The notes beneath the pieces are model-generated. The model was given only the letters and a program-made list of their open reading frames with translations, was not told where the DNA came from and did no database searches. Shown here piece by piece: positions 12,988 through 15,890 of a stretch of 64,000 bases of DNA (positions are counted from its first letter, which is position 1; every line of letters starts with the position of its first letter). Origin of the DNA: Halarcobacter sp. (lineage in GTDB: Bacteria; Campylobacterota; Campylobacteria; Campylobacterales; Arcobacteraceae); the NCBI RefSeq assembly GCF_963676935.1, contig NZ_OY781470.1:1398680-1462679 (forward strand), read 5' to 3'. Made by a program: the position numbers and the translations under genes.

Positions 12988-15099
12988 ATGATAGAAAATA
13001 TACTCAAAAGAGATGGCTCTTATGAAAAATTTCAAGCATACAAAATAAAAGATGTAATAAAAAAAGCTTTTAAAAGCGTACATACAACTTATGATGCTAC
13101 TGTTTATTTAAATGTAATTGAACAATTAAATAAAAAAAGAGTATTTGCAGTAGAAGATGTACAAGATTTAATTGAAAATGAATTATACAAAGCAAGATAT
13201 TTTGAAGTTATGAAATCTTTTATGTTATATAGACATATGCATAAAATGCAAAGAGAACAAATTTTAGGACTTAATGAAGATACAACTTATATAAATTCAA
13301 CACAAACTATAGAAGAGTATATAAATGGTACTGATTGGAGAATTAATGCTAATTCAAATACTGGATATTCCCATGCAGGTCTAATTAATAATAGTGCAGG
13401 GAAGATTATAGCTAATTATTGGCTTGACAAAATTTATACTAAAGAAGAAGGTTATGCACATAGGAATGCTGATTATCATATTCATGATTTAGATTGTTTA
13501 AGTGGATATTGTGCAGGTTGGAGTTTAAGAGTATTACTTGATGAAGGATTTAATGGTGTAAGAGGTAGAGTTGAGAGTTGTGCTCCTAACCATTTTAGAG
13601 AAGCACTAGGTCAGATGGCAAACTTTTTAGGTATATTACAAAGTGAATGGGCCGGAGCTCAAGCTTTTTCTTCATTTGATACATATTTAGCACCATATGT
13701 ATTTAAAGATGCCTTATCTTTTGAAGATGTCAAAAAAAATATTAGAAGTTTTATTTATAATCTAAATGTTCCAGCAAGATGGGGACAAAGTCCTTTTACA
13801 AATATTACTATCGATTGGACAGTACCTAGTGATTTAAAAGATCAAACACCAACAAAAAACCAGAAACATCTATTTACTAATATAAAAGATAAAGATTTAC
13901 TTCAAAAAGCAAAACAAAGAGGTTTTGATACTTTAGAGAATATGACATATAAAGCTTTTCAAGTTGAGATGAATATGATTAATAAAGCTTATTATGAAGT
14001 TATGACTGAAGGGGATAAAACAGGTCAACCTTTTACTTTTCCAATTCCAACAGTAAATATTACTGAAGATTTTGATTGGTATGGAGAAAATACAGATTTA
14101 CTTTTTGAGAATACTGCAAAGATTGGTTCATCTTATTTTCAAAATTTTATAGGTAGTCAATATATAAAAGATAAAAATGGGAAACTTATACCAAATAACG
14201 AAGCTTATAAACCAGGGCATGTAAGATCAATGTGTTGTAGATTACAATTAGATTTAAGAGAATTATTAAAAAGGGGTGGTGGTCTATTTGGAAGTGCGGA
14301 GATGACAGGAAGTATAGGTGTTGTTACAATCAATATGGCAAGACTAGGGTATCTATATAAAGATGATAAAGAAGCCCTTCTTAATAGACTTGAAGAGCTT
14401 ATGGATTTAGCACAATCAACTTTAGAGAAAAAAAGAGTTTTTATAAATGATTTATATGAAAGAGGATTATTCCCATACACAAAAAGATATCTTCCAAGTT
14501 TTAATAACCATTTTTCAACAATAGGTGTAAATGGTATAAATGAGATGATTATTAATTTTACAGAAAAGAAATATGATATATCAAAAGATGAAGGGATATC
14601 TTTTGCAATTGAGATTTTAGATTTCATGAGAAAGAGAATGATTAAATATCAAGAAGAAACAGGAAATCTATATAACCTTGAAGCAACACCTGCTGAAGGG
14701 ACTACATATAGATTTGCAAAAGAAGATAAAAAAAGATATTCAGATATTCATCAAGCAGGATTTGGGAAAAATATTTTTTATACAAATTCATCTCAATTAC
14801 CAGTTGATTTTACAGATGATATATTTGAAGCATTAAATTTGCAAGATGAACTTCAAGGCAAATACACTGGTGGAACTGTATTACATCTTTATATGAGAGA
14901 AAGAATAAGTTCAATAGAAGCTTGTAGAAAATTGATTAAAAATGTTATATCAAATTACACTTTGCCATATATAACAATAAGTCCTGTATTTTCTATTTGC
15001 CCAAAACATGGCTATATAGATGGAGAATATGAATATTGTCCAAAATGTGATGAAGAAATTTTAGATGAGGAGTTAAATAATGAAAAGCTTAGAGCCTAG
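12988..15099 (+). CDS. nrdD: Anaerobic (class III) ribonucleotide reductase large chain lacking its glycyl-radical segment
   Basis: NrdD reduces ribonucleoside triphosphates to deoxynucleotides without oxygen, using a glycyl radical made by NrdG. The 703 residues have an N-terminal ATP-cone (ILKRDGSYEKFQAYKIKDV), catalytic-barrel motifs (SGYCAGWSLRVLLDEGFNG, ARWGQSPFTNITIDW) and the C-terminal zinc site (CPKHGYIDGEYEYCPKCDEE). In the homologues I know, the zinc site is followed in the same chain by RVxGY carrying the radical Gly. Here the chain stops as DEELNNEKLRA, and that segment is encoded by the next, overlapping ORF. The large chain alone should therefore be inactive. Confidence 0.93.
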   Translation: MIENILKRDGSYEKFQAYKIKDVIKKAFKSVHTTYDATVYLNVIEQLNKKRVFAVEDVQDLIENELYKARYFEVMKSFMLYRHMHKMQREQILGLNEDTTYINSTQTIEEYINGTDWRINANSNTGYSHAGLINNSAGKIIANYWLDKIYTKEEGYAHRNADYHIHDLDCLSGYCAGWSLRVLLDEGFNGVRGRVESCAPNHFREALGQMANFLGILQSEWAGAQAFSSFDTYLAPYVFKDALSFEDVKKNIRSFIYNLNVPARWGQSPFTNITIDWTVPSDLKDQTPTKNQKHLFTNIKDKDLLQKAKQRGFDTLENMTYKAFQVEMNMINKAYYEVMTEGDKTGQPFTFPIPTVNITEDFDWYGENTDLLFENTAKIGSSYFQNFIGSQYIKDKNGKLIPNNEAYKPGHVRSMCCRLQLDLRELLKRGGGLFGSAEMTGSIGVVTINMARLGYLYKDDKEALLNRLEELMDLAQSTLEKKRVFINDLYERGLFPYTKRYLPSFNNHFSTIGVNGINEMIINFTEKKYDISKDEGISFAIEILDFMRKRMIKYQEETGNLYNLEATPAEGTTYRFAKEDKKRYSDIHQAGFGKNIFYTNSSQLPVDFTDDIFEALNLQDELQGKYTGGTVLHLYMRERISSIEACRKLIKNVISNYTLPYITISPVFSICPKHGYIDGEYEYCPKCDEEILDEELNNEKLRA
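15067..15072 (+). promoter_or_regulatory. Strong ribosome binding site for the separate glycyl-radical ORF, inside the nrdD 3' end
   Basis: GAGGAG at 15067-15072 lies 7 bases upstream of the ATG at 15080, ideal Shine-Dalgarno spacing. It is embedded in nrdD codons for Asp-Glu-Glu-Leu. The frame of the small ORF has stops at 15062 (TAG) and 15074 (TAA), so it cannot be entered from further upstream in that frame. Together these favour independent initiation over a sequencing error. Confidence 0.7.
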
Positions 15100-15238
15100 T
15101 AAATTAAAAGAAAAGAGAACTAGATGTATTGTATACACTAGAGTTATGGGTTACCATAGACCAGTTGAAAGTTTCAATATCGGTAAAAAGGGTGAACATT
15201 CTCAAAGGGTGAAATTTATTGAAAAAAATTATCTATAA
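15080..15238 (+). CDS. Separate glycyl-radical subunit of class III ribonucleotide reductase (52 residues)
   Basis: The 52-residue protein starts MKSLEPSKLKEKRTRC and contains VYTRVMGYHRPVESFNIGKK, which matches the glycyl-radical loop (RVxGY...RPV..FN.GK) normally at the very C-terminus of NrdD. The radical residue would be Gly24. It starts inside nrdD in the +1 frame (20-base overlap), has its own strong Shine-Dalgarno at 15067, and overlaps the nrdG start by 20 bases. The probable function is to dock onto NrdD and carry the radical made by NrdG, comparable in principle to the GrcA spare part of pyruvate formate-lyase. The alternative is a frameshift within an ancestral fused nrdD. It is too short for many gene callers. 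Confidence 0.82.
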   Translation: MKSLEPSKLKEKRTRCIVYTRVMGYHRPVESFNIGKKGEHSQRVKFIEKNYL

Positions 15239-15890
15239 TATAACACCTTTTACAACTGTTGATTATAAAGATCATTTATCTTGTATTGTATGGTTTATAT
15301 CATGCAATATGAGATGCAGGTATTGCTATAATCCTAATATAGTAAATTCTAAAAATGGTGAATATACTCTTGAGGATTTAATAGATTTTTTAAAAAGAAG
15401 AGTAGGGTTATTAGATTCTGTAGTTTTAAGTGGTGGAGAGGCTACACTTCATGATTTACAAACTATTTGTAATGATATAAAAGATCTTGGCTTTAAGATA
15501 AAATTAGACACCAATGGTTCTAATCCAAAATTATTAAATACACTTATAAAAAATAACTTATTAGATTTTGTTGCGTTGGACTTTAAATCAAATGAAAAAA
15601 ATTTTAATAAAATTACAAAATCATATTTTTACGACAAGTTTATACAAAGTTTAGATGTTTTACTTAATTCAAGTGTAGATTACGAAGTTAGAACAACACT
15701 TCATAAAGATTTATTAAATGAAAATGATATAAATGAAATGCAGGAAACTTTGCATAAAATTGGATACAAAAATGACTATTTTATTCAAAATTTTTTAGAA
15801 GTTGAAAACTTAACAAATATGAAAAAATCAATAAACTTTTTTGATAAAACTAAAGTAAATAATCACTTAAATATTATCTACAGAGATTAA
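15219..15890 (+). CDS. nrdG: Anaerobic ribonucleotide reductase activating protein (radical SAM)
   Basis: NrdG is the radical SAM activase that generates the glycyl radical of NrdD. The 223 residues contain the cluster motif CNMRCRYCYNP (CxxxCxxC) near residue 29 and the SAM-binding VVLSGGEATLH. The best start is a TTG at 15219, preceded by AAAGGGTG at 15204-15211 and overlapping the glycyl-radical ORF by 20 bases, which suggests coupled translation of all three nrd genes. The length fits the longer NrdG2-type activases. Its 3' end overlaps the convergent response regulator by 24 bases. Confidence 0.9.
   Translation: MKKIIYNITPFTTVDYKDHLSCIVWFISCNMRCRYCYNPNIVNSKNGEYTLEDLIDFLKRRVGLLDSVVLSGGEATLHDLQTICNDIKDLGFKIKLDTNGSNPKLLNTLIKNNLLDFVALDFKSNEKNFNKITKSYFYDKFIQSLDVLLNSSVDYEVRTTLHKDLLNENDINEMQETLHKIGYKNDYFIQNFLEVENLTNMKKSINFFDKTKVNNHLNIIYRD

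Follow-up and report, generated by a model that had tools for sequence, protein, structure and literature searches.

A separate small gene encodes the predicted glycyl-radical loop of a class III ribonucleotide reductase in Halarcobacter and its relatives

Class III (anaerobic) ribonucleotide reductase (RNR) is described as a single polypeptide, which holds both the active site and the radical (PMC11226230, PMC9531940). In the NrdD protein of P. copri the zinc motif and the radical loop with Gly711 both lie within residues 676–739 (PMC11226230). The only validated spare parts of glycyl radical enzymes are YfiD and Y06I, both of which serve pyruvate formate-lyase (PFL), while other enzymes have been named as a possibility (PMC8683613). 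Here, we analyzed a 64,000-nucleotide stretch of Halarcobacter sp. DNA (contig NZ_OY781470.1, positions 1,398,680 to 1,462,679), called the window below, in which the nrdD gene stops short of the radical loop, and the loop is found on a small open reading frame (ORF) located between nrdD and the activase gene nrdG (Table 1).

The nrdD frame terminates with CPKHGYIDGEYEYCPKCDEEILDEELNNEKLRA and a stop codon, past the zinc motif. The large chain contains an ATP-cone (Pfam match at residues 4–86), the barrel, a finger loop with a motif of the double-cysteine class named in PMC9669993, and the zinc motif, and it lacks the glycyl-radical loop. The small ORF contains CIVYTRVMGYHRPVESFNIGKKGEH, with the predicted radical Gly24 encoded at positions 15149–15151. 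It lies in the +1 frame relative to nrdD, with which it overlaps by 20 bases, its frame is closed upstream of the ATG by TAG at 15062 and TAA at 15074, and nrdG overlaps it by a further 20 bases. The Pfam profile PF13597 (NRDD) is divided between the two genes, with profile positions 2–529 on the large chain and 532–562 on the small ORF, where the match (5.7e-7) is better than the curated cut-off. At an E threshold of 0.01 the small protein matched solely NrdD-type families in Pfam and NCBIfam, and when it was compared alone with solved structures there was no match at E 0.1. An earlier note, made from the letters of the window, had claimed that nrdD stops after the zinc motif, that the radical loop forms a 52-residue ORF of its own in the +1 frame, and that this ORF has a GAGGAG site 7 bases before its ATG, two stops upstream and an overlap with nrdG; all of this was confirmed. 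Its description of the zinc motif held as to the location on the large chain and failed as to the ligands, because the first pair is Cys-Pro-Lys-His, so that three cysteines and one histidine are predicted instead of two CxxC pairs.

Table 1. Features of the split nrdD locus in the window
Feature	Position	Strand	Basis
nrdD large chain, 703 residues, 81.4 kDa	12988..15099	+	ORF list, Pfam, homology to solved NrdD chains
Finger-loop motif MCCR (within RSMCCR), double-cysteine type	14230..14241	+	Read from translation
Zinc motif CPKH...CPKC, stays on large chain	14998..15048	+	Read from sequence; metal binding inferred
GAGGAG ribosome-binding site of small ORF	15067..15072	+	Ends 7 bases 5′ of ATG
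Small glycyl-radical subunit, 52 residues, 6.2 kDa, isoelectric point 10.1	15080..15238	+	ORF, Pfam, homologues
nrdG activase, radical S-adenosylmethionine protein, CNMRCRYC motif (by eye), TTG start	15219..15890	+	ORF list

The large chain was classed as class III by its Pfam and NCBIfam matches and by the structural superposition described below. The NRDD domain over the barrel and the C terminus, the finger-loop cysteines, the zinc ligands and the adjoining NrdG are all present, while the radical glycine is not on the barrel polypeptide, and the locus was therefore filed as a two-chain variant and not as an ordinary NrdD. The genome of the window also encodes the class I proteins NrdA and NrdB. 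Presumably, therefore, the class III enzyme is used for growth when oxygen is scarce, in a bacterium that encounters oxygen as well, and for such a bacterium a radical part that is inexpensive and can be exchanged would be of advantage.

The conservation of this arrangement was examined in a sample of 100 genomes, consisting of the window's own genome and 99 relatives, which we infer to be Campylobacterota from the closest named large chain, that of Sulfuricurvum (70.7% identical and in the same tree clade). A match to NRDD was found in 66 of the 100 genomes. The window type of nrdD was present in 62 of these 66, and the radical loop was absent from the large chain in all 62. The remaining four (G019, G050, G072 and G087) have fused NrdDs, which are 21–24% identical to the window's chain and belong to a different subfamily. 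Homologues of the small protein were detected in 61 genomes, the window's own included, and the small ORF accompanies the window-type nrdD in 61 of the 62 cases; in the other one, G044, it was not found, and the contig ends just past nrdD. It is located on the same contig as nrdD in 60 genomes and on another contig in G060. The large gene of G026 is cut by a contig end, and that of G024 (L051) appears in two open frames (NRDD positions 2–270 and 274–529), so that either the gene is broken or the assembly is in error. Four loci that at first appeared to be one-frame fusions (G047, G063, G091 and G152) were rejected as such, since at least one stop was found between the parts.

In all 60 loci holding both parts, these are separate ORFs, the small ORF has an ATG preceded by a motif resembling a Shine–Dalgarno (SD) sequence, and a homologue of nrdG lies downstream. 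As a control, ATGs internal to nrdD were checked for this loose motif, which stood before 9.9% of 2888, although the small-ORF starts were picked among candidates, which somewhat flatters this contrast. The data firmly indicate that the split is real and widely conserved, and they bear out the earlier note, which had asked for conservation of both the split and the ribosome site in relatives. In comparisons within the genus, the pooled ratio of nonsynonymous to synonymous differences (pN/pS) was 0.205 for the core of the small ORF (120 pairs, with the row of G011 misaligned by one codon, which raises pN) versus 0.145 for nrdD (the 37 of 120 pairs with equal length). The synonymous differences were high in both (pS of 0.61 and 0.52, respectively), and the small ORF is under purifying selection.

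A programmed +1 frameshift or stop readthrough, which would produce a single fused NrdD with the small ORF as its 3′ part, is very unlikely. A frameshift would agree with the fact that the window and 13 of the 15 other genomes of the same genus share exactly the 20-nucleotide overlap and the +1 frame, and readthrough with the single in-frame stop that separates the parts in G063 and G091. However, the frame of the small ORF relative to nrdD is +1 in 32 of the 60 loci, +2 in 20 and 0, behind at least one stop, in eight, and the ORF starts between −35 and +111 nucleotides from the nrdD stop in 57 loci and between +803 and +852 in the other three (G028, G034 and G054). Because frame and spacing vary to this extent, and ORFs intervene in these three genomes, frameshift and readthrough are excluded as a general explanation; the SD-like site and ATG of each small ORF, and the copies without a neighboring nrdD described below, also argue against them. 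By eye, one of the two intervening ORFs at each locus (L055, L059 and L076) resembles a NifU/IscU scaffold, and the other would encode a small unknown protein. A role of the small protein in the repair of a different glycyl radical enzyme, e.g., PFL, instead of the completion of NrdD would recall that of GrcA/YfiD (PMC8683613), but it is highly improbable, given the family matches noted above, the location in an nrdD–nrdG operon, and the fact that without the small protein NrdD would have no radical loop. A sequencing error or a decayed pseudogene in the window's genome is scarcely credible, because the split, the separate starts, and the variable frame and spacing recur across relatives, as does the loop-less large chain, the small ORF is under purifying selection, and neither a close relative with an uninterrupted nrdD of the same type nor a missing base, which the earlier note had named as refuting cases, was found.

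The split is not limited to this sample. The RefSeq annotation has the same layout on the plasmids pSULKU01 of Sulfuricurvum and pHG1 of Cupriavidus necator H16, where the small ORF is named nrdD, so that the split itself is already in the databases, and the short NrdD-like entries that the earlier note had supposed do exist. The small gene of H16 (E6A55_RS33455) encodes 66 residues. A 1999 study reportedly described the H16 enzyme as an NrdD of 76.2 kDa on which anaerobic growth depends. The computed mass of the H16 large chain alone is 76.19 kDa, and therefore the NrdD of that description would be without the glycine. A scan of named genomes, in which four small proteins served as the query, and which is therefore biased toward split forms, returned among the best 80 loci of a longer list 75 split operons, one fused gene, one small ORF with nrdG at a contig edge, and three orphans. 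The titles of these records name beta-, gamma- and alphaproteobacteria, and a few metagenome-assembled genomes (MAGs) labeled Omnitrophica, Verrucomicrobiota, Actinobacteria and Geobacteraceae.

To describe the history of the split, a tree of 86 large chains was calculated with the C-terminal columns removed (LG+G4 model, without bootstrap). The 86 were taken from 126 collected chains; 37 of 60 Campylobacterota-type chains were left unsampled, G019, G050 and G072 were omitted as distant, and G024, G026 and G087 were outside the 126 since even the best single match in each fell short of the required length. The 80 named loci contributed 53 chains to the tree; 55 had passed the length filter, from which L229 and L245 were then omitted. 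The fused labels of L298 and L300, missed by the motif search, were set by hand. The tree has a clade of 83 rows (support of 100 in the Shimodaira–Hasegawa-like approximate likelihood ratio test), which excludes the three remaining chains, all of them distant and fused. Nested within this clade are four fused rows (Actinomyces oris, Acidiphilium/Acidithiobacillus and a Verrucomicrobiota MAG), while the other 79 rows are split. The tree needs at least four changes between split and fused forms, and its simplest reading suggests one split followed by three re-fusions. Such a re-fusion of the parts would argue that both form one enzyme. Among the fused relatives, the chain of L298 (phage record MT835493, NrdD frame from 1501) runs by eye past the radical loop into a glutaredoxin-like domain, so that the reductase and a possible reductant would be on one polypeptide. 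Two other fused NrdD relatives are on a phage (L300, Oceanotoga phage vB_OteS-UFV02) and on a plasmid (L299, Geoalkalibacter pGSUB1), with nrdG unannotated in the stretch shown.

An artificial read-through chain of both parts was modeled (predicted local distance difference test score of 78, predicted template modeling score of 0.78). The model superposed on T. maritima NrdD with a Z score of 29.4 and a root mean square deviation of 2.9 Å over 515 residues, in the model range 134–748. As this range reaches into the small protein, the model supports the place of the small part in the NrdD fold.

The best explanation of these data is that the locus very probably encodes a class III RNR made of two catalytic polypeptides, because the two parts are homologous to adjacent pieces of one domain, the split is conserved, and the starts are separate. 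Several points weigh against this explanation or against the history proposed for it. In an evenly drawn set of Pseudomonadota, NrdD was found in nine of 100 genomes, of which four are split, including the center genome, and five are fused. The quick tree gave long-branch warnings, the nested fused rows are joined mostly with support values of 81–91, and the small ORF had served as the query in finding most of the rows from outside the Campylobacterota. The fold model, being a single artificial chain, is silent on the docking of two chains. In the two-chain enzyme, the operon would make NrdD, the small subunit and NrdG by coupled translation, and the small chain would dock on NrdD beside the zinc motif. 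NrdG would then abstract hydrogen from Gly24 of the small chain, and the radical would move from there to a finger-loop cysteine of the large chain. If oxygen cut the chain at the radical glycine, the replacement would be a 6-kDa protein instead of an 81-kDa one. As the radical domain of P. copri NrdD turns disordered upon dATP binding (PMC11226230), it is plausible by analogy that dATP releases the separate small subunit.

Small ORFs were also found away from nrdD. Two scans of predicted viral contigs gave 109 loci on 103 contigs, with six contigs in both scans, the first being the best 80 of 131 relatives. At 108 of the 109 loci there was a match to neither nrdD nor nrdG, and L206 alone holds all three genes. 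When each contig was counted once and flanks of at least 2.5 kb upstream and 1 kb downstream were required, 63 of 64 lacked both genes, while the other 39 of the 103 fall short of at least one of these lengths. In a search of 50 viral contigs at full length (up to 212 kb), an NRDD match was found in 49, and in 48 of them it covered only the C-terminal end. The sole contig with a large chain was G142, which is that of L206; G128 has a second weak match (6.5e-4, positions 503–529). The R-x-M-G-Y radical motif is present in all 109 viral copies, in a direct count that is partly by construction, as a search pattern included the motif; the 100% at the glycine in the motif table is fully so, since only MGY and MGF rows were kept there. 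Nine small proteins, including that of the window, match phrog_4132, a phage family annotated as of unknown function. This family (179 positions) is longer than the radical loop, and in L153, L157, L144, L161, L177, L172 and L185 the frame of the viral ORF extends upstream with a Cys-rich stretch. Phage genes located nearby include those of a major head protein (L189), a tail sheath (L190), a terminase (L192) and a tape measure protein (L157).

Orphan small ORFs are also present on plasmids of Allochromatium vinosum and A. tepidum, of which the plasmids only were examined. Two small genes occur along with a single nrdD in three genomes, G028, Allochromatium palmeri (G150) and BMS3Bbin13. The core of the orphan is identical to the operon copy at 36 of 37 positions in both G028 and BMS3Bbin13. 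In BMS3Bbin13 its own operon copy is the best of 76, with the next at 32/37, and when the phage-side copy of G028 was compared with 60 operon copies, that of its own host tied for best with G034. The neighbors of the second copy of G028 (L056:1179-4198) include a holin-like gene and a reverse transcriptase of phage type. In the Succinivibrio MAG G151, the orphan is on a prophage-like contig beside lysozyme and spanin genes (L281). Within the nrdD of A. palmeri (C163:43991-46525), the NRDD match is broken near profile position 157 by about 930 nucleotides that lie within a single reported open frame, possibly an intein.

These copies lend indirect support to the idea of the earlier note that the radical loop is a detachable, replaceable subunit. 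By analogy with T4 Y06I and PFL, we propose that phages and some plasmids carry the bare subunit matched to the split class III RNR of their host, and that this chain would be supplied to the host NrdD and charged by the host NrdG, which would restore or increase the anaerobic synthesis of deoxynucleotides during infection or following damage by oxygen. This bold proposal, to which we would give an even chance, contains the least certain step of our interpretation, the spare-part role of the phage copies. The orphans could instead be decoy inhibitors of the host RNR, act in another process such as lysis, or be neutral passengers, which we consider possible but rather unlikely. A lysis-type gene adjoins the small ORF in seven of 14 phage-like loci examined (L056, L147, L190, L193, L208, L212 and L281; some matches are weak), and no such neighbor was found at L114, L140, L189, L192, L195, L202 and L210, with one neighbor examined at L140, L202 and L210. 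This neighborhood, which indicates a late position that does not readily fit a role in boosting DNA precursors, and the Cys-rich N-terminal extensions of some viral copies, would agree with a role other than that of a spare part. Several further points count against the spare-part role. The contigs, taken from IMG/VR, are predicted viruses and often fragments, of 107 viral copies only 61 have a five-base SD ahead of an in-frame start, and the window's small protein had no match at E 0.01 among 50,697 INPHARED phage records. In A. palmeri the orphan is identical to its own operon copy at only 27 of 37 core positions, and nrdD was not found in the contigs of G151, nor in G155, which has a small gene with nrdG at a contig edge. 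On the other hand, the conservation of the radical motif, partly by construction as it is, and the near identity of two orphans with the operon copy of their own genome, argue for the spare-part role.

What is new here is that the small ORF occurs on predicted viral contigs in the absence of nrdD and nrdG, and also on Allochromatium plasmids. The searched literature, which was in part available as partial text and did not extend to subscription papers, contained no account of an NrdD radical subunit encoded separately, nor of copies of it in phages, which leaves their absence in print unproven. In a conserved lineage that includes the C. necator H16 operon, the radical loop is on a tiny separate protein, and therefore activity tests of the large chain alone would miss it. 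The phage family phrog_4132 gains a likely role. If the proposal is true, the small subunit would, as judged from the papers searched, be the first known spare part of a glycyl radical enzyme other than PFL.

The comparison with known systems sets this locus apart from each of them. In the split class II RNR NrdJa/NrdJb of Pseudomonas aeruginosa the C-terminal part is also a separate gene, but NrdJb, as described in PMC5704485, is a cysteine-rich domain for oligomerization and re-reduction and not a radical carrier, and in place of a class II barrel with a separate C-terminal domain the large chain here is class III. Phage RNR genes are also found in pieces, due to introns, inteins and homing endonucleases (PMC3653736); on the basis of this description, such sporadic interruptions differ from a conserved split at one domain joint. 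GrcA/YfiD and T4 Y06I resemble the small protein in being small, free-standing glycyl-radical proteins that are phage-encoded too. However, GrcA duplicates a loop that intact PFL has, while here the host enzyme is without the loop; homology to the C-terminal domain of PFL was not found among the families listed at E 0.01, and only the phage and plasmid copies, not that of the window, lie apart from the enzyme served. In composition the locus resembles the fused NrdDs of T. maritima, P. copri, T4 and E. coli, with which it shares the barrel, the ATP-cone, the zinc motif, the sequence of the glycyl-radical loop and the NrdG partner; here, however, the domain is encoded by two genes, with the boundary between the zinc motif and the glycine loop.

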